A stretch of 64,000 bases of DNA, from assembly GCF_000302595.1 (NCBI RefSeq), contig NZ_JH947128.1, positions 460,287 through 524,286 of the forward strand, read 5' to 3'. The notes beneath the pieces were generated by a model. The model saw only the letters and a program-made list of their open reading frames with translations. It searched no databases and was not told the DNA's origin. Source of the stretch: Pedobacter arcticus A12 (lineage in GTDB: Bacteria; Bacteroidota; Bacteroidia; Sphingobacteriales; Sphingobacteriaceae). Numbering within the stretch: position 1 is the first letter of the stretch; each line of letters starts with the position of its first letter. Positions 18,727 through 48,245 of this stretch are shown here, piece by piece. Made by a program: the position numbers and the translations under genes.

Positions 18727-19830
18727 ATGAAAAACTTAGCTATTTTATCAATCAATCAGGACGCGTATTCAGAAACGTTTATCAAAATCCATAAAACTTT
18801 ACCCTTTAACATTTCTTATTACTATGGCAATGTAATCCCTACTCATCTTGAAGGCAAGGGTTATCTACTCAAAAATAAATTGTATAGGTTGTATATTTCT
18901 GTAGTAGCCAAAATTAAAAAAAAAGAAACTCGTCTTTTTGCTTTAGAACGTAGCTTAAGAAAAGAAAACATTGATGTTGTATTAGCAGAATACGGAACAA
19001 CTGGAGCTGAATGCTTAGCAATTGTTAAGAGCTTGAAGCTACCACTTCTTGTCTTTTTCCACGGTTATGATGCGTCCGTTACCTCTACTTTAGACTTGTA
19101 TAGAGTTAAATATTTGGCATTGTTTAAGTACGCGAGTTGTGTTTTTTCGGTATCAAATGCAATGACTGAGAAGCTAGTTAGCATTGGCTGCGATAGGAAA
19201 AAGATATGCTATAATGTTTATGGTCCTAACAATTTATTTCTGGGTGTTAAGCCCAATTTCGAAAACAACAATTTTGTCGCGATAGGTCGATTCGCGGATA
19301 AAAAAGCTCCTTATTACACCATTTTAGCCTTTAATCAAGTGGTAAAAAAACACCCTGATGCCAAATTGATAATGGCAGGTGACGGGCCTTTATGGAATGT
19401 TTGTAAAAACCTAATACTTCACCTAAATCTTCAAAGAAACGTATCGTTAATTGGGATAATTAATCCACAAGAATGGGCAAAGTTATTAGGAAATTGTATT
19501 GCTTTCTTACAACATTCTGTTACCGCAGCAACAGGAGACATGGAAGGCACTCCTGTTGCTGTTTTAGAGGCCTGCGCCGCAGGAATTCCGGTAATTTCAA
19601 CCTATCACGCCGGCATACCTGATATCATTGAACATGAGGAAAATGGTCTACTATGTGAAGAGCATGACGTCGACTTAATGGCCGTAAACATTATTAGAAT
19701 TTTTGAAAACAGACATTTTGCTCAAGAACTTGGTAAGAACTCTAAACTGAAAATTAAAGAAAGATTCTCAATAGACCAGCATTTACAAATTATTACTACG
19801 GAAATTGAATCATCCCTAAAAAGCTGCTAA
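18727..19830 (+). CDS. GT4 family glycosyltransferase
   Basis: This is a 367-residue GT-B enzyme. The N-terminal domain holds VLAEYGTTGAE and FFHGYDAS. The C-terminal Glycos_transf_1 domain holds the FVAIGRFADKKAP loop, KLIMAGDGPLW, and the donor-binding GTPVAVLEACAAG motif with the E-x7-E type acidic residue. It also has a SVTAATGDMEGTP segment of the kind seen in colanic acid WcaL-like transferases. It would transfer a hexose from a nucleotide sugar to the growing chain. It stands alone after a 283-base gap and is followed by a 51-base spacer. Confidence 0.88.
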   Translation: MKNLAILSINQDAYSETFIKIHKTLPFNISYYYGNVIPTHLEGKGYLLKNKLYRLYISVVAKIKKKETRLFALERSLRKENIDVVLAEYGTTGAECLAIVKSLKLPLLVFFHGYDASVTSTLDLYRVKYLALFKYASCVFSVSNAMTEKLVSIGCDRKKICYNVYGPNNLFLGVKPNFENNNFVAIGRFADKKAPYYTILAFNQVVKKHPDAKLIMAGDGPLWNVCKNLILHLNLQRNVSLIGIINPQEWAKLLGNCIAFLQHSVTAATGDMEGTPVAVLEACAAGIPVISTYHAGIPDIIEHEENGLLCEEHDVDLMAVNIIRIFENRHFAQELGKNSKLKIKERFSIDQHLQIITTEIESSLKSC

Positions 19831-19881
19831 TAGAAAGCTAAACTACTGAAAAGTAAGTACTATGATCTAAAATAAGAAACG

Positions 19882-20892
19882 ATGAAAATAGACGTATTAA
19901 GTAACGAATATATTTCAATTAGGGCGCTACCCATTAATTACAAGGAAAGTGATTCGAAGATTTTCAAGAGAGAGTTCAAAAAGCTCATTCCACAAAATAA
20001 CGTTTCAATACTTAAAAATGCAACTATTGTAGAGGAAACAATATTCCATAATTATTGTATTTTAGGTAATTACACCCATACTTTTAAACTTGACTGGCAG
20101 TACAAAAGTAAGGTTATTTTAAAAAGATTTATTTTCCCCCAATTAAAGGTTGAAAAAGCTATTTGGATTACAGATGATCTAAGTCCAGGGTATTTCCACT
20201 GGTTTTTAGATTGTTTACCCAGACTTTTAAACATCGATAAAACAGACAGTGATAAAAATGGGGTAATAATTTTAACGCCGGAAACTGTTGGACAAAATTT
20301 TGTAACAGATTCTTTAGACTTAATGGGCTACAAATATTTTGTAAAAACAGATAAAAAAGTAAATATAAAGTGTGAGGAGCTTTTAGTAGGCAACCATTGT
20401 GCATATACTACTGGAAATTACAACGAGCCCTTAATTAAAGAATTGAGAGACATATTTCTAAAGAAAATCAAAGTTCAAAAAAGTTCAACAAAAAAATGGG
20501 TTTATATTAGTAGAGATAAATCAACTAGGCGAAAAGCCACAAACGAGGCTGGATTGGTAAATATGTTACTAGCGCTAAACGTTGAGGTTCACTATTTTGA
20601 GGAGTACAGTTTTTTAAAACAAATGGACATCATTGCGCACACAGATTATTTAATTTCTATACATGGGGCTAGTTTGACAAATATGCTTTTTATGAGTGAG
20701 AACACACACGTAATAGAGCTACGAAATGATGTTGATACCCATAGCAATTGTTACTTTAGTTTAGCTGCGGCCTTAGATATAAATTATCATTACTTACTTA
20801 ATAAAGGGAATGACGATATTCCCCATTTCGCAAATTTAATAATAGATATAGAAGCTTTAAAAAATTATATTCTTAATTTAAGAAAGGATTAA
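19882..20892 (+). CDS. GT61 (DUF563) family glycosyltransferase
   Basis: This is a 336-residue protein. Hallmarks of the GT61/DUF563 family are GYFHWFLDCLPRLL (about 107-120), VYISRDKSTRRKATNE (about 211-226) and the C-terminal SIHGASLTNMLFM with its invariant His-Gly-Ala. Family members in eukaryotes transfer xylose or GlcNAc; bacterial ones in glycan loci are largely uncharacterised. It has no membrane segment and is probably peripheral on the inner membrane. Codon use is AT-rich, as in its neighbours. Confidence 0.87.
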   Translation: MKIDVLSNEYISIRALPINYKESDSKIFKREFKKLIPQNNVSILKNATIVEETIFHNYCILGNYTHTFKLDWQYKSKVILKRFIFPQLKVEKAIWITDDLSPGYFHWFLDCLPRLLNIDKTDSDKNGVIILTPETVGQNFVTDSLDLMGYKYFVKTDKKVNIKCEELLVGNHCAYTTGNYNEPLIKELRDIFLKKIKVQKSSTKKWVYISRDKSTRRKATNEAGLVNMLLALNVEVHYFEEYSFLKQMDIIAHTDYLISIHGASLTNMLFMSENTHVIELRNDVDTHSNCYFSLAAALDINYHYLLNKGNDDIPHFANLIIDIEALKNYILNLRKD

Positions 20893-27733: not shown

Positions 27734-28642
27734 ATGGATTGCATTTGCACCTTATATGAAAAGCACTACGATTACGGGGTGGCAGGATTATGTAACTCGC
27801 TTTCAAAAAGTGGATTTAAAGGACTCATCATTATAGGGTATAAATTACATCTTCCGTTTTGGCTTAAACAACTTAAGAAAGCTGATGAAAATAATTATTA
27901 TTTGGATGATAACATAACGTTGACTTTTGTTTGCCTTGACCATATAGACTATCATCTAGGTTATTATAAGGCAAAATTTCTACTATATTGTTTAGACCAC
28001 TTTCAAGCTATTGAGACACTATCATACTTTGATCCAGATATTACTATCAAAGCGAATTGGTCCTTTTTTCGAAAGTGGATAAAAGCTGGTGTTGCATTAG
28101 CTTCAGATAACTGTTATCCTTTTCTTCACCGTAACCATCCTTGGCGAGCAGATTGGCTTACTCTATTCCCGGAAAGACAAGCCATATCCTATTTGCAAGC
28201 ATATATAAACAGTGGTTTTATAGGGTTTCATAAAAAAAATAAGGGATTGGTAGAGCTCTGGGATAAAGCTTTAGAGGCTTACCTAAATAATGGCGGACAG
28301 ATTCAGTCATTTGAAAGAAACGCTGAAGAAGGTTTAAAAGGTGATCAGGATTTACTTAACGCAGCACTTATGTTTTTTCCAGAAACAGAATTAAGTATAA
28401 TCGGTCTTGAAGCGATGGGATTTATTCAACCCTGCTATATAATGGGCCATGCGATTAACGGAGTTAAACCTTGGAAACGTAAATTTACGGCTGATTTTTT
28501 ATTGAACAATATTTCAGCTAGTTTTGCAGAAAAATTATATTTAGAGAATTGTTCCTATCCAATTAAAGTTTTCCCTTTATTTAAACAAAAATTAAAAATG
28601 GTAGATATAACCATAGCATCAGCATTAAATAGATTTTTATGA
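27734..28642 (+). CDS. GT8-like nucleotide-sugar transferase
   Basis: This is a 302-residue protein. An N-terminal strand-helix opening (MDCICTLYEKHYDYG) is followed by YKAKFLLYCLD and the metal-binding FDPDITI (DxD, about 99-105). GDQDLLNAAL near residue 211 and HAINGVKPW near 238-246 correspond to the late motifs of GT8-fold enzymes (GDQD and HxxGxxKPW). The overall similarity to named GT8 members is weak. It probably transfers a hexose or a uronic acid. A 4-base overlap links it to the next, broken gene. Confidence 0.75.
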   Translation: MDCICTLYEKHYDYGVAGLCNSLSKSGFKGLIIIGYKLHLPFWLKQLKKADENNYYLDDNITLTFVCLDHIDYHLGYYKAKFLLYCLDHFQAIETLSYFDPDITIKANWSFFRKWIKAGVALASDNCYPFLHRNHPWRADWLTLFPERQAISYLQAYINSGFIGFHKKNKGLVELWDKALEAYLNNGGQIQSFERNAEEGLKGDQDLLNAALMFFPETELSIIGLEAMGFIQPCYIMGHAINGVKPWKRKFTADFLLNNISASFAEKLYLENCSYPIKVFPLFKQKLKMVDITIASALNRFL

Positions 28643-28996
28643 TAAAAAGATTAGCTACATTGATTAAACAAAATATAACGGCTAATAAGCTAGGTCTAAC
28701 ATTTTTTACTGGAATAGCAAAGGAAGATGGAACAGCCTTTCTTAGTTTTACAGTGAGAGATTCCGAAATTGTGACAGGCTTAACGAAAAACTTTTTAGAT
28801 AGAAATGGTTCTATTTTAATCGATAGTTTTAATTCTGTAATAAAAAAGTATGTTTTTTTTGATTTAAGAAAAATAAATTGTGAAGATACAAAATGATCTT
28901 TTAAAGGAGGATATGCGGAAGAAGTTTAACATTATTCAAGAAAGTAAAATAGATGCCTTAACAGGTATGATCTTAGTAAGGAATAACTCATTATGA
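28639..28996 (+). pseudogene. Small protein of about 118 residues split by a frameshift
   Basis: The ATG (overlapping the previous stop) opens 85 codons ending in TGA at 28894-28896. The +1 frame then continues without a break (starting NDLLKEDMRKKFNI) to a TGA at 28994-28996. That TGA overlaps the next ATG as ATGA, exactly the coupling seen at other junctions here, so the second part is the natural C-terminus. The shift must lie between about 28873 and 28896. No homologous family was recognised; a WcaF- or transferase-associated small protein is possible. It is either a real disruption, a sequencing error or a recoding site. Confidence 0.6.
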
Positions 28997-29907
28997 TTCT
29001 CTCTATTCTGATTCCAACTTATAATAGAAAGACGCAACTACTAATTGCTCTTAAATCATGTTTAGATTACCATGATAGAAATATTGAGATCATTATTGGA
29101 GATGACAGCGAAGCGTCATTAGAAAATGATTTTTTTAAACAAGTGAGTCTTCCGAGTAATTATACTATAAAATATCTACACAGACCGATTTCACTAAAAC
29201 AAAATAAAAATGTAGCGTCCCTGATAAATGAAGCCTCAGGCACTTATAGCCTGATTTTGCATGATGACGACTATTTATTACCTAATTCGCTCCAAATTCT
29301 AATTAAAGCTGCAGAGTCAAGAAACGACTTAAATTGCATTTATTTCGGTAAACAAATTTTAGTCAATGATTCAGGTGAATTAATTGAACCTAATAATCTA
29401 AACAGAGATTATTTTCGTAGTGAGGAGTTCAAAGGTTTACAAAGTGATCCAGTAAAAATGGCGCTTTTGCAACAAGTTCCTTCAAACAGCTTTCTTTTTC
29501 CGACTGAATATGCAAAAAAAATTGGGTACAGAAATTATGAAACCGTTGGTGACGCTTGTGATTTTGATTTTATCATTAGATTTGTATTGAAAGAAAAAAC
29601 TGAATTGTTTTTTATAAATAAAGATATATCTGCATATCGATTAAGCCCACATTCTATATCTCAATCGGCTCAAAATAATGCTATTTTCTTCAAGTATGAA
29701 GTCATGAAAGATTTAAAAATTGCAAATTCCAATTCAGAAATACTGAGAACCATCATAAAATCAGATTTAAATGTATTATGTGGCTATTATATTAGTAATA
29801 ATTATAGAAATGAGTTAAGAAAGATATACTTTAGTGGTAATTACCCTGTTCTAAAAAGATTTACTCTACGAGGAATTTATCATCTTTTGAATTGCTTTAT
29901 ACGTTAA
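28993..29907 (+). CDS. GT2 family glycosyltransferase
   Basis: This is a 304-residue GT-A enzyme. It opens with ILSILIPTYNRKTQL, has the nucleotide-binding IIIGDDSEAS (about 34-43) and the metal motif LHDDDYLLPNS (about 92-102). It belongs to the DNRLRE-less GT2 group common in capsule loci. It is coupled by ATGA to the frameshifted small gene upstream. The C-terminal 60 residues are basic and partly hydrophobic, suggesting peripheral membrane contact. Confidence 0.9.
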   Translation: MILSILIPTYNRKTQLLIALKSCLDYHDRNIEIIIGDDSEASLENDFFKQVSLPSNYTIKYLHRPISLKQNKNVASLINEASGTYSLILHDDDYLLPNSLQILIKAAESRNDLNCIYFGKQILVNDSGELIEPNNLNRDYFRSEEFKGLQSDPVKMALLQQVPSNSFLFPTEYAKKIGYRNYETVGDACDFDFIIRFVLKEKTELFFINKDISAYRLSPHSISQSAQNNAIFFKYEVMKDLKIANSNSEILRTIIKSDLNVLCGYYISNNYRNELRKIYFSGNYPVLKRFTLRGIYHLLNCFIR

Positions 29908-33331: not shown

Positions 33332-34621
33332 ATGAAATTACTCATTATCCATCCCGGCATCCAACATTCGTCTCGCTTAGCTAATGGAGCGGTAATGTCG
33401 GGGCTATTTGAAAAAGTGACGTTGTTAACTAGTATCCTTTTTAAACCCAAACAGAAGCTTATAGGCTTGTTAAAAAAAAGAGTAAAACCTATAGATGCTG
33501 ATGTTAGCATTGTAAACCATTACCTATATACGCTTTTATTCACTGTTAGTCGTTATTTGTACAATAAAATTGTAGTCAACCCCCAGAACCAAAGTCATAA
33601 CAATCCCATTTACTTTTGGCAGCAGATTTTTGGAATATTATGCTTGCCTCGTATTTATTTTCAGCGTAAAAACACCTTAGTGGTTTGTTTTGAAACTACC
33701 GGATGGCCATTAGTAAAGTACTGCAAAAAATGGGACATTCCCGTAGTGATGGATTTCGCTTCCATCAGCCACGAAAAGGCGAAGACATTAGGAATTAACG
33801 AAACTATGTACGGTATCAAACTTAAAGTAAAAGAAAGAGCTTTTATTGATTATGCTTTTTACTGCTCTGAGTTTTGCAGGAAGAGTTTTGAGGGTTTGAC
33901 ATCGGCGAAGAAGGATTTTGTGTTGTATTTGGGAGCGGAGCAGTGGCAGACGCAAGAGACAAGTAGCAAGAATCAAGACACCTATGGCGTGGAAAGCTTT
34001 GGGGAGAATCAAGATTCAAGAAGCAAGAAGCAAGAGATTTGCGGAGTGGAAAGAAAGAGTATGTCCATCAAGCTTTCTTTTATTGCTAATTTAGAGTTTA
34101 GGAAAGGTTTGGATATTTTTTTGGAAAGTATTTATGCCTATGAATATCCTGTATTTTTAGAAGTGCATTTAATTGGGCGGATTAGAGAAAGCTGGGTGGC
34201 GGAGCATATGCCTAAAAACATCGTAAATCATCAGGTCAAATTAATTTATCAGCCGGCCATGAGTCAGGGTGGATTATTTGATTATTTAGCAAAGGAGCAA
34301 TTTGACTTGAATGTGCAATGTAGTCGTTTCGATTCTTTTGCGATGGTGGTTCCAGAAACGATGATGCAAGGAATCCCAAATGTCGTTTCACCATTTGTGG
34401 GTGCTGGTGAAATGATTAAAAACGGAGTGGATGGTTTTATTATGAAGGACCTAGACAGCGCAAGTTTGAATAATATATTCAACCAATGGATGACTTTAGA
34501 TCTTGACGAAAGGAAGTCTTTAGTACAACGAGTTTTATCAAGTTCGAAAAATATGGTCTGGGAAAATTACTATGGTAATTTAGGTATGGTTTTTAAAGAA
34601 ATTTTAGCGGATATCAAATGA
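33332..34621 (+). CDS. GT4 family glycosyltransferase with repeat-derived insertion
   Basis: This is a 429-residue GT-B enzyme. LLIIHPGIQHSSRLANG opens the acceptor domain. The donor domain has LSFIANLEFRKGLDIF and the E-x7-E-like DSFAMVVPETMMQG. Between the two domains, at about residues 205-243, is a hydrophilic segment rich in Ser, Lys, Gln and Asp. It is encoded by a near-repeat of AAGAATCAAGA/AAGCAAGAAGCAAGA words (about 33950-34055) of a type otherwise seen between genes. The insertion lies at the domain linker, where a GT-B fold can tolerate it, and keeps the frame. The start is the ATG immediately after the previous stop. Confidence 0.87.
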   Translation: MKLLIIHPGIQHSSRLANGAVMSGLFEKVTLLTSILFKPKQKLIGLLKKRVKPIDADVSIVNHYLYTLLFTVSRYLYNKIVVNPQNQSHNNPIYFWQQIFGILCLPRIYFQRKNTLVVCFETTGWPLVKYCKKWDIPVVMDFASISHEKAKTLGINETMYGIKLKVKERAFIDYAFYCSEFCRKSFEGLTSAKKDFVLYLGAEQWQTQETSSKNQDTYGVESFGENQDSRSKKQEICGVERKSMSIKLSFIANLEFRKGLDIFLESIYAYEYPVFLEVHLIGRIRESWVAEHMPKNIVNHQVKLIYQPAMSQGGLFDYLAKEQFDLNVQCSRFDSFAMVVPETMMQGIPNVVSPFVGAGEMIKNGVDGFIMKDLDSASLNNIFNQWMTLDLDERKSLVQRVLSSSKNMVWENYYGNLGMVFKEILADIK

Positions 34622-35796
34622 AGATAGCTTTCCTAGTAGAATTTCCGACGCAGTTTGAAGTGCCTTTTTATAAGTATGTAGCGGGACAGATTAAAGAACA
34701 AAAAGCAAAGGACTTCGACTCCGCTCAGTCTGACGAGGGGAACTTCGACTCCGCTCAGCCTGACAAAGAGTTTAATTTTCATGTGATTTATAACAATACC
34801 GATCAACAAGATTATCATGATTTTGAATTGGGTAAAAAGGTGGGTTGGGGTTTTAATTTATATGAAGGTTATACTTATTTTATTGCGGATAAAAACGACA
34901 TCGTCAATTCTGTTTCTGCAATATTAGAAACGGAAAATTACGATTATGTAATTTTAAATGGTTATAAGAATTCTTATGCTGGGTTAACCGGGCTTTGTAA
35001 ACGAAAAAACATTCGGATCGCTTTACGTATAGATTCTGTACTTTATAATTTAAGTCCGCTTAAGAAGATTTTAAAACGCATCTACTTGCCTTTTGCTTAT
35101 CGTCAGTTTGACCATTTTTTTGCAGTGGGCTCAGAAACTAAAAACTTTTTGAATTGGTTAGGGATTAAAAACGATCGGATTAGTTATTTCTCTTATTCGA
35201 CAGATGAGGTTTGGTTTAGCGGTAAGGCAAATGATATAGAAAAAGTGACGGCTTTAAAAGAGCAGTTGAGTATTGGTCATCAAAAGGTATTGTTAAGTGT
35301 GGCTAAATTTGTTCCTCGTGAATCTCCTTGGGATATTTTAAAAGCTTTCGGGGTTTTAAATGACCCAAATTTAGTTTTGGTTTTGGTGGGCGACGGCGAA
35401 GACCGAAAAGCTTTGGAAGCTAGGGCCAATACGCTGCCACAGCTTAAAATTATATTTACTGGATATATCCCTTACCAAGAACTCGGTTATTATTATGGCA
35501 TTGCTGATGTTTTTATCCACGCCGCTAAAAATGAGCCTTGGGGCGTTTCAGTCCATGAAGCCTTAGCCTGCGGATGTACGGTAATTACTTCTGATAAGGT
35601 AGGATCTAGTACGGATTTGATTATTGAGGGGAAGAATGGTTTTACCTATCCTTTGGAGGATGCTGAAAAATTAGCTCAAACTATTAAAGCTTCACTACAA
35701 CTTGATTGTAAGCTAAAAGCTAAAACAAACGAAACTATTTTGAAGAACTGGAGTTACTCAAAAATGTTAGAAGAAATTAAAAGTGTTTTTAACTAA
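34618..35796 (+). CDS. GT4 family glycosyltransferase with two repeat words inside
   Basis: This is a 392-residue GT-B enzyme. The C-terminal domain has VLLSVAKFVPRESPWDILKAF, LVLVLVGDGEDR and EPWGVSVHEALACG (E-x7-E). Near residues 32-51, after the first helix, two in-frame copies of the word CTTCGACTCCGCTCAG (34713-34728 and 34743-34758) encode FDSAQ twice. The reverse complement of this word is in the intergenic region at 44059-44080. The inserted part lies on a surface loop and is not expected to be conserved. It overlaps the previous gene by 4 bases (ATGA). Confidence 0.88.
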   Translation: MKIAFLVEFPTQFEVPFYKYVAGQIKEQKAKDFDSAQSDEGNFDSAQPDKEFNFHVIYNNTDQQDYHDFELGKKVGWGFNLYEGYTYFIADKNDIVNSVSAILETENYDYVILNGYKNSYAGLTGLCKRKNIRIALRIDSVLYNLSPLKKILKRIYLPFAYRQFDHFFAVGSETKNFLNWLGIKNDRISYFSYSTDEVWFSGKANDIEKVTALKEQLSIGHQKVLLSVAKFVPRESPWDILKAFGVLNDPNLVLVLVGDGEDRKALEARANTLPQLKIIFTGYIPYQELGYYYGIADVFIHAAKNEPWGVSVHEALACGCTVITSDKVGSSTDLIIEGKNGFTYPLEDAEKLAQTIKASLQLDCKLKAKTNETILKNWSYSKMLEEIKSVFN

Positions 35797-35819
35797 TCGA
35801 ACCAAAATTTGCTCTTATC

Positions 35820-37115
35820 TTGAAAATCCTACACGTCACCGCATCTTACAAACCCGCATTTATTTACGGTGGGCCGATTTATTCGGTAGCTGCCTTGTGC
35901 GAAGCTTTGAATGAGACGAAAGAACAAAGAACAAAGAAGAACGACTCAGGAGAGGTTGAAAGTGAATTAGACTCGGACGAAAATGCAACTATAATCGACA
36001 ATTTACCGCCGTCTGCGGAGTACGGACAAATCATCCCTTCGGTTCACGTTTACACCACTTTAGCCAACGGAAAGGAAGAACTGCCATACGCAAACGCTCA
36101 TACGGAAATAGTAGAAGGCGTAGCCGTAACTTACTTTAAGCGCATCACCAAAGATCATAGCCATTTATCTCCTACCTTGTTAGCACATCTTTGGAAAAAT
36201 GTTACGAAATTTGATGTGGTACACATCCATGCTTGGTGGAATTTGGTAAGTATAGGAGCAGCTATCGTTTGCTTATGCAGAGGCGTAAAACCCATTTTGT
36301 CGCCAAGAGGAATGTTAGGAGACTATACTTTAAGCAAAGGCAAATTACTTTTTCACCAGATTATCGGGAAGCGGATCTTGAAAAACTGCAATTTTCATGC
36401 AACCACCTCGATGGAAGCGAGAGAGATTCTAAAACAAGTTTTTGCTAATGAGGAGGGTATTGAGGTGGTGGATTTGATGGAGGGTGAGGAAGTTCAAAGT
36501 GAAAAGCGGAAAATGGAAAGTGGAAAGAAAAGCGCCAAAATTTTCATTATTCATAATTTGGTAAAACTGCCGGAAGAACTCCCTATAAAAAAAAGAGCTT
36601 TTGACGGGACGCTCAAAATAATCTTCTTGTCTAGAATTCATCACAAAAAGGGTATCGAATTATTGTTGCATGCGTTATGTTTGGCAGATATTTCTTTCCA
36701 ATTAACCATCGTAGGGGAAGGAGAACCAGAGTATTTGAAAAGTTTAAAAGCAACGGTAAAAAAATTAAGATTGAATAATCGGATTGATTGGCTAGGGCCA
36801 ATATATGGAAATGAGAAATTTCAAATTTTAGCTGAACATGATTTGTTGGTACTAACATCTTATAATGAGAATTTTGCAAATGTATTGATAGAGTCAATAG
36901 CAGTTAAGACCCCTGTTTTAGTATCTGAGATGGTTGGATTAAAAGATTGGATTTTACAAAATAGATTTGGCTCAGTATGTAAAAATGACCCTTCTAAGAT
37001 TGCGGAAGTGCTTAAAGAAATTCGAGACAAAATCATTAATCAAGAACTTAAGATGGATAACTTAAACATAATAAAAGACGCAACCCTCTATTTTAAAGCA
37101 TATGAGCGATTATAA
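35820..37115 (+). CDS. GT4 family glycosyltransferase with two low-complexity insertions
   Basis: This is a 431-residue GT-B enzyme starting with TTG, the only start that preserves ILHVTASYKPAFIYGGPIYSV. The donor domain has IIFLSRIHHKKGIELLLHAL, LTIVGEGEPEYL and ENFANVLIESIAVKTPVLVS (E-x7-E type). Two hydrophilic stretches interrupt the family pattern. One is at about 32-70, from GAACAAAGAACAAAGAAGA-type repeats plus an acidic run. The other is at about 216-238, from GAAAAGCGGAAAATGGAAAGTGGAAAG. Both are built from words typical of intergenic simple repeats here. It overlaps the methyltransferase gene by 14 bases. Confidence 0.87.
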   Translation: MKILHVTASYKPAFIYGGPIYSVAALCEALNETKEQRTKKNDSGEVESELDSDENATIIDNLPPSAEYGQIIPSVHVYTTLANGKEELPYANAHTEIVEGVAVTYFKRITKDHSHLSPTLLAHLWKNVTKFDVVHIHAWWNLVSIGAAIVCLCRGVKPILSPRGMLGDYTLSKGKLLFHQIIGKRILKNCNFHATTSMEAREILKQVFANEEGIEVVDLMEGEEVQSEKRKMESGKKSAKIFIIHNLVKLPEELPIKKRAFDGTLKIIFLSRIHHKKGIELLLHALCLADISFQLTIVGEGEPEYLKSLKATVKKLRLNNRIDWLGPIYGNEKFQILAEHDLLVLTSYNENFANVLIESIAVKTPVLVSEMVGLKDWILQNRFGSVCKNDPSKIAEVLKEIRDKIINQELKMDNLNIIKDATLYFKAYERL

Positions 37116-39716: not shown

Positions 39717-39959
39717 ATGAAAACGCTTAGCATAGCCTTACCCGATAATTTAGACTTAAGCACTAAAGAAGTCACTACTGCCTTAGCCGCTCAGTTATAT
39801 GATATTGGAAAATTATCTTTAGGGCAAGCGGCTAATTTGGCGGGTTATTCCAAAGCAACTTTTATGGAGCTCTTATCCAATTACAAAGTTTCAGTTTTCA
39901 ATTATCCAGCAGAAGAATTAGATCAAGATTTTGAAAATGCAAAAAATTATTATAGCTGA
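39717..39959 (+). CDS. UPF0175 family antitoxin
   Basis: This is an 80-residue protein. A short N-terminal beta strand with LSIALPDNL is followed by helices ALAAQLYDIGKLSLGQAANLAGYSKATFMELL, here quoted in part as KLSLGQAANLAGYSK. This is the helix-turn-helix-like UPF0175 signature. Such proteins pair with DUF3368 PIN-like toxins, neutralise them and probably repress the operon. The toxin gene overlaps its end by 23 bases. The pair sits between the last glycosyltransferase and the carbamoyltransferase, with its own 140-base upstream gap, so it looks inserted. Confidence 0.9.
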   Translation: MKTLSIALPDNLDLSTKEVTTALAAQLYDIGKLSLGQAANLAGYSKATFMELLSNYKVSVFNYPAEELDQDFENAKNYYS

Positions 39960-40395
39960 TACCAGCTGTTTAATCATTCTGCACAAAATTGGACATCTAA
40001 CCCTATTAAAAGATGTTTTCAAAACTGTCTACATTACCGCCATTGTTGCAAAAGAGTTCGGAGTAGAGTTGCCAGCATGGATTACTGTCACAAACCCAAT
40101 TAATATAGATTTTCAAATTATTTTAAATGCTTCCGTTGACCTGGGGGAAGCAAGTGCCATTGCGCTAGCCTTTGAACACAAACATGCCCTGATTATCTTG
40201 GATGATTTGAAAGCGAGAAAGCTAGCTACAAGTTTGAACTTAGTGTTTACCGGTACATTTGGCTTCATCATCATGGCGAAAACCTTGGGTAAATTAACTT
40301 CCGTCAAAACAATCATCGATAAAATTAAACTAACGAATTTCCATATCACGCCAGAGCTAGAACAACAAATACTAGAAAAATCTGGTGAACTTTAA
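39937..40395 (+). CDS. DUF3368 PIN-like toxin
   Basis: This is a 152-residue protein from the ATG at 39937; a TTG two codons earlier is in frame but less likely. The first PIN acidic residue is Asp8 in IIIADTSCLIILHK. The second is in LGEASAIALAFEH, and the late pair is in LIILDDLKARKLA. The FTGTFGFIIMAKTLG tail is the DUF3368 hallmark. PIN-type toxins cleave RNA; the partner antitoxin is encoded just upstream. The pair may stabilise the polysaccharide locus by addiction. All expected acidic residues are present, so it is probably active. Confidence 0.9.
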   Translation: MQKIIIADTSCLIILHKIGHLTLLKDVFKTVYITAIVAKEFGVELPAWITVTNPINIDFQIILNASVDLGEASAIALAFEHKHALIILDDLKARKLATSLNLVFTGTFGFIIMAKTLGKLTSVKTIIDKIKLTNFHITPELEQQILEKSGEL

Positions 40396-43989: not shown

Positions 43990-44945
43990 GAGTGTTTTAT
44001 AATGATTGGCATTCAAATTTACAGTCAATACAAGGCATGTCATGTCATCCTGAGAATTGTCACTCTGAGCGGAGTCGAAGAGGGAGTCGAAGGGAGCGAA
44101 GGGCTCTTACGACCAAGCAGGTCTGCTCAGACGACCCTTGTTTTCAGATTGTTTACTGCTTTCAAATCTTATGCTCAATATCAAAATCTTCCCGCCTCAT
44201 TGCCGGCGGAAGGGCTATTACTTTTTTCATTCTTTCTTATTATACTGATGGCATTCAAGAGTGCTTCGCAATTCCCAATAGCAGGAAAGTAACAAAGAGC
44301 CGCCACTGCGCCAGTTGCTACAATGGTAGCAGTTTTATTTCTGCAACGCTACCGCAACCGCCAAGGTGGAATTTATCGGTTAGGAGCGGGAGTGCTTTAA
44401 ACTTATTTTGTGGGCGTCCTTTAGTAGAACAGTATTGCAGATTGGGCCTCTGAATGTTTGGATTGGAACCCGATAAATCTTTTGCACTCCCTTTGTAAAC
44501 TGACAACCGTCAGCAATCCGCAAAAGTGGTGCACAGACTTCGTGAAAGCACCACCGTTCCCGCGGCTTGGATTGCGCTTAAAAGATTTATTGCGGTGTAA
44601 TGAACAAAAATTCAGAAGCCGAAGCTTTTTGGTTCTTTTTAGCAAAAAAGAACTTGAGCTTGTCGTGCTCAAGAAGGACGGAAAGGTGGTGAAATGGGCT
44701 TTTCTTTTTGAACGAACGTTTTTTCTTAATGTTAAAATCGTCCCGCCTCATTGCCGGCGGAAGGGCTATTACTTTCCCTTCAGCTGGAAAGTAACAAAGA
44801 GCCGCCACTGCGCCAGTTGCTACAATGGTAGCAGTTTTATTTCTGCAACGCTACCGCAACCGCCAAGGTGGAATTTATCGGTTAGGGATGGAAGTAGCTT
44901 AAACTTATTTTGTGGGCGCTCTTATTCTCCTCAAGACGACTAACG
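43990..44945. repeat. Two copies of the dispersed composite repeat plus a SerPro-like word cluster
   Basis: Copy 1 (about 44189-44415) and copy 2 (about 44740-44921) share CCCGCCTCATTGCCGGCGG, AAGTAACAAAGAGCCGCCACTG and the word TTGCTACAATGGTAGCAG. They also share a GCAACGCTACCGCAAC stretch and the end ACTTATTTTGTGGGCG. Copy 1 carries about 60 extra bases before AAGTAAC. Upstream, at 44059-44080, GTCACTCTGAGCGGAGTC is the reverse complement of the word inserted into the glycosyltransferase gene at 34.7 kb. All open frames here derive from repeats. The remaining bases to 45040 hold no gene. Confidence 0.82.
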
Positions 44946-47439: not shown

Positions 47440-48245
47440 TTTAAATATATGAATTTTTGGGTTTATCGGAAAAGGCGCAGGGTCCTCTGCGAGAGACCCT
47501 GCTTGGACGGTGAGAGTTCATACCCAACTCTGATGATTCTGGATCGAGCCATTTCTTTCGTAGTGTCCAAGCAGAGTCTCCTTTTCGGGACTCTGCGTTC
47601 TTAAGTTGCAGACCTAGTGGCATCGCGACTATTTTTCTTGACGTTTTTATTTAAGCTATAATCCAAAAATTGCTCATAAAAATCGAAATCTCAGTAACGC
47701 AGGGTCCTCCGAGAGACCTTGCTGGGACGGTGAGAGTTCATACCCAACTCTGATGATTCTGGATCGAGCCATTTCTTTCGTAGTGTCCAAGCAGAGTCTC
47801 CTTTTCGGACTCTGCGTTCTTAAGTTGCAGACCTAGTGGCATCGCGACTATTTTTACTGACGTTTCTATTTGAGCTATAATTCAAAAATTGCCCATAAAA
47901 ATCGAAATCTCAGTAACGCAGGGTCCTCTGTGAGAGACCCCGCTTGGACGGTGAGAGTTCATACCCAACTCTGATGATTCTGGATCGAGCCATTTCTTTC
48001 GTAGTGTCCAAGCAGAGTCTCCTTTTCGGGACTCTGCGTTCTTAAGTTGCAGACCTAGTGGCATCGCGACTATTTTTACTGACGTTTCTATTTGAGCTAT
48101 AATTCAAAAATTGCCCATAAAAATCGAAATCTCAGTAACGCAGGGTCCTCTGTGAGAGACCCTGCTGGGACGGGAAATATATGGATTTTGGGCGTACCGG
48201 AGAAGACGCAGAATCCTCTGCCAGAGACCCTGCTGGGACAAAAAA
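47440..48245. repeat. REP/BIME array: three tandem units of 222/219/222 bp
   Basis: Units start at 47477, 47699 and 47918, and a partial fourth starts at 48140. Each opens with a REP palindrome GCAGGGTC...GACCCTGC followed by TTGGACGG or TGGGACGG. About 85 bases later comes an inverted partner GTCCAAGCAGAGTC...GACTCTGC, so each unit is a pair of REPs in opposite orientation. The stretch 48176-48240 repeats the sequence at 47445-47510, including the TATGxATTTTxGG flank of the transposase gene. The units are over 95% alike by eye, which suggests recent amplification. Open frames inside are repeat-derived. Confidence 0.9.

Follow-up and report, generated by a model that had tools for sequence, protein, structure and literature searches.

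In-frame heptanucleotide arrays and repeat words in the surface loops of GT4-type glycosyltransferases of Pedobacter

In Pedobacter arcticus A12, three consecutive genes for GT4-type glycosyltransferases, here termed GT1, GT2 and GT3, carry hydrophilic inserts made of short DNA repeat words. The genes lie in a 64,000-nucleotide stretch (the window; contig NZ_JH947128.1, positions 460,287 to 524,286), and the inserts, originally predicted from its letters alone, are borne out by the open reading frames (ORFs, called mechanically at 100 aa or more, longest first), by the Glycos_transf_1 domain (PF00534), which scores above cut-off in all three products, and by the tandem arrays and word positions (Table 1). 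These inserts probably reflect recurrent slippage of heptamers together with the capture of repeat words, filtered for reading frame, for a stop-free strand and for a hydrophilic peptide, such that disordered surface loops are built up on the enzymes.

Table 1. Glycosyltransferase genes of the window, their inserts and the opposite-strand word copy (TRF, Tandem Repeats Finder, score cut-off 36; lag-7 self-match against 5000 codon shuffles, segment borders set by the analyst)
Feature	Position	Strand	Observations
GT1, GT4-type glycosyltransferase, 429 aa	33332..34621	+	ORF; PF00534 E 4.6e-10
GT1 insert, ahead of strand IKLSFIANLE	33948..34061	+	heptamer array AGAATCA 34005-34035 (TRF); lag-7 self-match 0.477, p 0.0002
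GT2, GT4-type glycosyltransferase, 392 aa	34618..35796	+	ORF; PF00534 E 2.4e-31
GT2 insert, alpha1-beta2 loop	34702..34770	+	two copies of CTTCGACTCCGCTCAG, 34713-34728 and 34743-34758; 30-base tandem; translated FDSAQ
GT3, GT4-type glycosyltransferase, TTG start, 431 aa	35820..37115	+	ORF; PF00534 E 1.8e-22
GT3 insert A, alpha1-beta2 loop	35913..36041	+	array AAAGAAC 35919-35938 (TRF); lag-7 p 0.0006
GT3 insert B, ahead of strand IFIIHNL	36471..36536	+	array AAAGTGG 36496-36527 (TRF); lag-7 p 0.0004
GT2 word copy, opposite strand	44057..44080	-	inverted repeat I1, 92% complementary; within doubtful 153-aa ORF 43992-44453

The principal evidence is a seven-base period in the DNA. Alignment of 92 distinct GT3 genes to an insert-free reference, a procedure by which a few ordinary gaps may be scored as inserts, yielded 85 inserts of at least 8 residues, 7017 nt in total (the GT3 genes L175, L200 and L206 are absent from this pool but enter the Mucilaginibacter comparison below). 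In the pooled inserts, 43.3% of positions match the base seven positions away, compared with 25.7% in the core and 28.1% (standard deviation 0.55) in codon shuffles, an excess of 27 standard deviations. Lags 14, 21 and 28 are raised as well, the pattern of tandem units of seven bases, while lags 3, 6 and 9 exhibit no excess in the same 85 inserts. Because a codon-level process would favor a period of 3, the process that forms the inserts acts on DNA. What it produces is nevertheless kept readable. All 80 named loci have an open GT3 frame, 77 of them by script, the other three having been flagged through the match of a neighboring paralogue while their main match lies within one ORF. These loci were selected by GT3 as the best 80 of 203 relatives found, and since the species are related, gene counts among them are not independent. 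All 39 inserts of at least 20 residues are open in the coding frame, but the remaining sense frames are open in only 6 and 3 of them, which disposes of the expectation that such arrays are open in every frame; the reverse frames are open in 15, 20 and 14 of the same inserts, but would encode more hydrophobic peptides. The earlier proposal of repeat DNA inserted in frame, with selection for frame, is thereby supported.

The same loops are hit again and again, with different words. Across Pedobacter and Pelobium, both among the genus-level relatives compared (Pelobium having been matched through an identical GT3 segment), orthologues carry inserts at the same alpha-beta loops, and in GT3 these fall mostly in four zones of the reference (residues 30-40, 90-95, 173-202 and 247-256), with a few elsewhere. 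The first zone, between helix 1 and strand 2, spans 9 residues in 30 of the 58 named loci (out of 80) in which it could be parsed, and 160 residues in the relative G013. GT2 is hit at this same structural place. Its insert is missing in six orthologues of the genus (G009, G017, G008, G012, G011 and G007, the last at locus L152), while the G014 orthologue has a longer insert at the same site; since the window and G014 inserts have words in common, part of them may be inherited. In GT1, whose orthologues were found in G009 (57% identity) and G014 (58-61%), G014 likewise has a longer array insert at the insert position. Loops of the C-domain are hit in GT3 and also in a further enzyme, starting KLAII.THPIQYY and here named HPIQYY. 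In 9 of 58 copies of the latter, two such loops hold inserts of at least 8 residues, and sequence context suggests that one of the two is the counterpart of the last GT3 zone; the 60-78 zone of this enzyme shows ordinary variation in length. In two relatives, G009 (L063:1115-3499) and G007 (L068:8533-10845), GT1 and GT2 are fused in a single open frame.

The inserts are disordered in the two structure models. The GT3 model is of the GT-B type, with a mean pLDDT (predicted local distance difference test) of 83.9, and its top Protein Data Bank (PDB) matches are MshA, GlgM, sucrose-phosphate synthase and BshA. Residues 45-69 of insert A, flanked by helix 19-39 and strand 74-80, fall below a pLDDT of 50, as do residues 231-233 of insert B. 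In GT2, for which the alignment held 7 rows including the paralogue L155, residues 41-48, which lie between helix 14-38 and strand 53-58, fall below 50. Thus, in the AlphaFold models, the alpha1-beta2 inserts of both enzymes lie in disordered stretches.

Insert length turns over fast in close pairs. In the closest GT3 pair, with 97% core identity, the inserts differ by gaps of +63, -168 (split by the aligner into 163 and 5) and +96 bases, and in the next pair (90%) gaps of 84, 84 and 21 bases occur among 20, many of which are ambiguous; in four looser pairs (80-84% identity) the gaps are ambiguous and were left out. Several clean steps in this small sample are multiples of 21, the smallest length that serves both the seven-base unit and the frame, although 96 is not.

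Two of the inserts have their sequence in common with noncoding repeats. The first is the GT2 word, whose reverse complement had been placed near 44059-44080 and was found on the opposite strand at 44065-44080. As a 16-base word with one position free, CTTCGACTNCGCTCAG, it has 50 copies in the host genome (4.23 Mb, 16 contigs), including the two in GT2, and 0 occurrences there when reversed as a backwards control. In a 1.2-Mb sample of this genome, 15 of 18 copies of CTTCGACT are intergenic. The claim that similar words fill intergenic gaps therefore stands for this word; it is weak for the heptamers, as AAAGAACAAAGAAC occurs once in the whole genome and arrays of AAAGTGG, allowing at most two mismatches, give 6 matches at four places, one of which is GT3. 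The second case is the first GT3 insert of G013, which matches the DNA directly upstream at 82% over 304 nt. That stretch is covered solely by a 153-aa ORF on the opposite strand and is apparently noncoding. The insert has 12 further matches in intergenic DNA; for comparison, the other insert tested had one intergenic match, and one piece of core had one match in another gene.

Genome samples locate most arrays of period 7 between genes: 15 of 22 in the 1.2 Mb of the host genome and 32 of 39 in 0.8 Mb of G013. Of the seven host arrays within ORFs, three are in the glycosyltransferase trio, one in an E2 acyltransferase-like gene, one in an argC-like gene and two near doubtful ORF starts. A regional effect, whereby the DNA of the cluster would simply be rich in repeats, was rejected for this genome, since 0 of the 15 intergenic arrays lie in the range of the window compared with the three coding ones. 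Outside the window, argC-, E2 acyltransferase-, metH- and aspS-like genes, named by eye (G000:C4:38312-39379, 28307-29839, 534877-538728 and 18970-20739), contain heptamer arrays or 14-mers common to intergenic repeats.

The supposed restriction to three adjacent genes did not survive, as such inserts or words are also present in further GT4 genes and in a few unrelated kinds of gene, and inserts recur in certain GT4 loops across Pedobacter. It is the enzyme class that stands out. The 80 named loci (1.25 Mb) contain 43 arrays of period 7 in four glycosyltransferase families (2.6 per 10 kb), compared with 3 in other genes (0.03) and 25 in intergenic DNA (1.8). As the HPIQYY group in this density count was defined after arrays had been seen there, GT4-like genes were also set by a GT4 profile built irrespective of arrays, and by this measure 26 of 228 GT4-like genes carry a heptamer array compared with 3 of 882 others (p 8e-16); with GT3 removed, the figure is 11 of 151 (p 1e-7). 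Periods of 8, 9, 11, 12 and 13 gave no such contrast in these loci, and period 10 leans likewise toward GT4 (5 of 228 vs 4 of 882). An expectation that arrays in genes would be more worn than intergenic ones was not borne out, their median exact runs being 18 and 13 nt, respectively. Arrays of AAAGTGG are present in 17 of 301 genomes of the family. Among 30 loci from that search, some overlapping, four arrays lie inside genes, amounting to three genes (one HPIQYY enzyme, one GT3 and one GT1), and at 23 loci the array coincides with no ORF of 120 aa; in L307 the array touches an ORF end, in L297 it sits at a doubtful ORF start, and in L300 it lies at a contig edge and was left unjudged. The backwards control GAAAGGT, itself a heptamer array, matched many family genomes, in several more often than the AAAGTGG query, and had 0 matches in the host genome. 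The trio is thus not unique, yet with respect to arrays GT4 loops behave like intergenic DNA.

A mechanism consistent with these observations may be outlined as follows. Slippage or local duplication would generate heptanucleotide arrays, and intergenic repeat words would also be copied in. Both would land in a small number of alpha-beta loops on the surface of GT4 glycosyltransferases encoded in polysaccharide-type clusters, where inserts would lengthen and shorten quickly. To be retained, an insert would have to be divisible by three in its total length and, in the strand and frame used, contain no stop and encode a hydrophilic peptide. The predicted outcome is that the GT-B core of the enzyme stays normal while its loops are disordered and probably non-catalytic. 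Slippage is the presumed engine, the loops may be neutral or mildly beneficial, and relaxed or diversifying selection on GT4 enzymes may cause their enrichment. Four observations weigh against this account. The GT2 insert has no seven-base period (lag-7 p = 0.91), being instead a 30-base tandem of a word of ~22 bases; the heptamer words and inserts of the window have few close copies elsewhere in their own genome; and in G013 just 1 of 7 ORF-borne arrays is in GT3, the remaining ones listed being in a 207-aa ORF, an 891-aa ORF and doubtful ORFs. Finally, Mucilaginibacter has 8 intergenic heptamer arrays in 44 kb, compared with 11 in 79 kb of Pedobacter and Pelobium, and arrays in 0 of its 29 GT3 genes, compared with 14 of 41 in Pedobacter and Pelobium and 1 of 10 in unnamed records. 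Mutation and permissive loops alone are therefore insufficient.

A bolder version, which we regard as rather improbable, holds that Pedobacter keeps the alpha-beta loops of its cell-surface sugar enzymes as hypermutable seven-base sites, at which length and peptide would often change by 21 bases and the frame would switch otherwise, so that the coat polysaccharide or the partnering of enzymes varies under pressure from phages or hosts. Somewhat less probable still are outright phase-variable contingency loci, in which gain or loss of one seven-base unit shifts the frame and toggles the sugar enzyme. Glycosyltransferases are a classic phase-variable class, and contingency loci of the Haemophilus type consist of tandem simple sequence repeats (SSRs), not divisible by 3, in surface-glycan genes. 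The present arrays resemble them in being non-triplet repeats in glycosyltransferase genes, close to the start in GT3 site A, which begins near codon 31, and their length changes fast while the other sense frames mostly hold stops. Congruent with this, SSRs are cited as enriched near N-termini (PMC4692102). Against frame toggling, 0 of 80 loci have a broken frame, several loops per gene are filled, and the arrays are short and mostly imperfect, an exact run of at least 35 nt occurring in 1 of 43 glycosyltransferase arrays (and in 2 of 25 intergenic ones, which are hardly longer), so that long pure tracts are not a feature of these genes. Frame switching has no direct support from this comparison of one genome per species and is, in our estimate, unlikely.

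Small mobile repeats inserted in frame, whether repetitive extragenic palindrome (REP)-like elements moved by a transposase or palindromic elements of the Rickettsia type, rank lower again. Such elements would account for the many genomic copies of the GT2 word, three pairs of which lie on opposite strands spaced 31-35 bases, and for the recurrence in the loops of other species of peptides resembling word translations (FDSAQ/FDYAQ, QDD and LSFGEG, identified by eye); but it is seven-base periodicity that dominates the pooled inserts. Ordinary variable protein loops, with repeats due to chance or codon-level duplication, are very unlikely. The inserts are indeed hydrophilic and located in surface loops, and an alignment of orthologues, proposed with the original prediction as the way to recognize ordinary loops, does return the same positions with different words. 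However, these words are themselves DNA repeats, so ordinary loops do not follow, and both the period of 7 rather than 3 and the match of the G013 insert to adjacent, apparently noncoding DNA speak against them. Pseudogenes, assembly errors or wrong ORF calls can be dismissed as scarcely credible, for although G014 is a metagenome bin and the ORFs are mechanical, inserts occur in many named-strain records, the cores are conserved and open, and the structure models are confident.

Recurrent slippage and word capture under a frame filter would join two phenomena, each already known. Rickettsia palindromic elements (RPEs) are reported as intergenic repeats also fused in frame into genes for conserved proteins (Ogata 2000; review PMC2229807), 105-146 bp long with inverted ends and present in 19 reading frames of various genes; one tested RPE-bearing product, that of gmk, is still active with altered substrate affinity (PMC2229807). 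The GT2 word and the G013 insert resemble RPEs in having both in-frame intragenic and intergenic copies. Unlike RPEs, the present repeats are concentrated in GT4 loops, and their unit is shorter than 105-146 bp, consisting of 7 bases or, where there is a 30-base tandem, of a ~22-base word. Heptanucleotide repeats, in turn, are described as mostly intergenic in Calothrix, in Xanthomonas and Nostoc (GGGAATC) and in Beggiatoaceae (TAACTGA), and also in some Bacteroidetes; slippage is proposed there, seven nucleotides perhaps being the length that contacts the polymerase (PMC4692102, PMC4679880). One short in-gene case is given, two TAACTGA units near the end of purC in a Bacteroidetes strain, and units that are multiples of three are held to be likeliest within genes (PMC4679880). 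The GT1 and GT3 inserts of the window, though not that of GT2, have the tandem seven-base units of these repeats, and the arrays of the two genome samples are likewise mostly intergenic, though those of GT4 genes are not. In contrast to the mainly intergenic repeats described in those reports, the present ones occur in frame, in one enzyme class and as many different words. Within one open-access library, searched by titles and abstract openings and leaving most subscription journals outside, no report was found of in-frame heptamer arrays in glycosyltransferases, or of such arrays with differing words in fixed loops of one enzyme class.

The loops offer a natural series from noncoding-type repeat DNA to protein, the same loop ranging in dozens of species from 9 residues to ~150 longer, and in close pairs the change can be seen under way. 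Whether the inserts are junk that is tolerated, raw material for new functions, or switches thereby becomes testable, and these soil and water bacteria may show how repeat DNA gives rise to new segments of protein. As a practical matter, the "hydrophilic linkers" of these enzymes can be recent repeat DNA and ought to be masked in alignments and structure models.

The trio is probably part of a polysaccharide cluster, as genes for a Wzy_C-like protein (under its cut-off), a methyltransferase and a carbamoyltransferase lie nearby. A UPF0175 and DUF3368 pair inside the cluster (39717-40395) is presumably a toxin-antitoxin-like module. In G014 (L062:6854-12590, twin L151), GT2 or GT3 is present as three 5' fragments, all of which run on into repeat DNA. 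After them come a helix-turn-helix stretch (in one ORF with the GT2 fragment), an ORF resembling a zeta toxin and another resembling AbiEii, before the same gene starts again; the arrangement looks like module insertion with duplication of the gene start, and it prompted the idea of recombination or cassettes. A search for such 5' duplicates in 87 sources (the window, six genus loci and the 80 named loci) returned only this case, its other matches being a plain tandem duplication (L168), similar genes lying in a row (L224), repeat-derived matches of the window itself, and a few of very short length. The duplication in L168 (10193-11414, P. chinensis) is an identical 60-aa 5' copy of a 284-aa glycosyltransferase-like gene. 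Directly upstream of GT3 in G013, a short ORF (L325:14855-15118, equivalent to G013:C1:94855-95118) resembles by eye the C-terminal part of AbiEii, as if it were a decayed remnant of the module seen in G014. The window also holds two long tandem repeats, at 280-1248 (474 nt x 2.0) and 47476-48173 (222 nt x 3.2), and the 405-aa ORF spanning the former (249-1466) is probably no gene.

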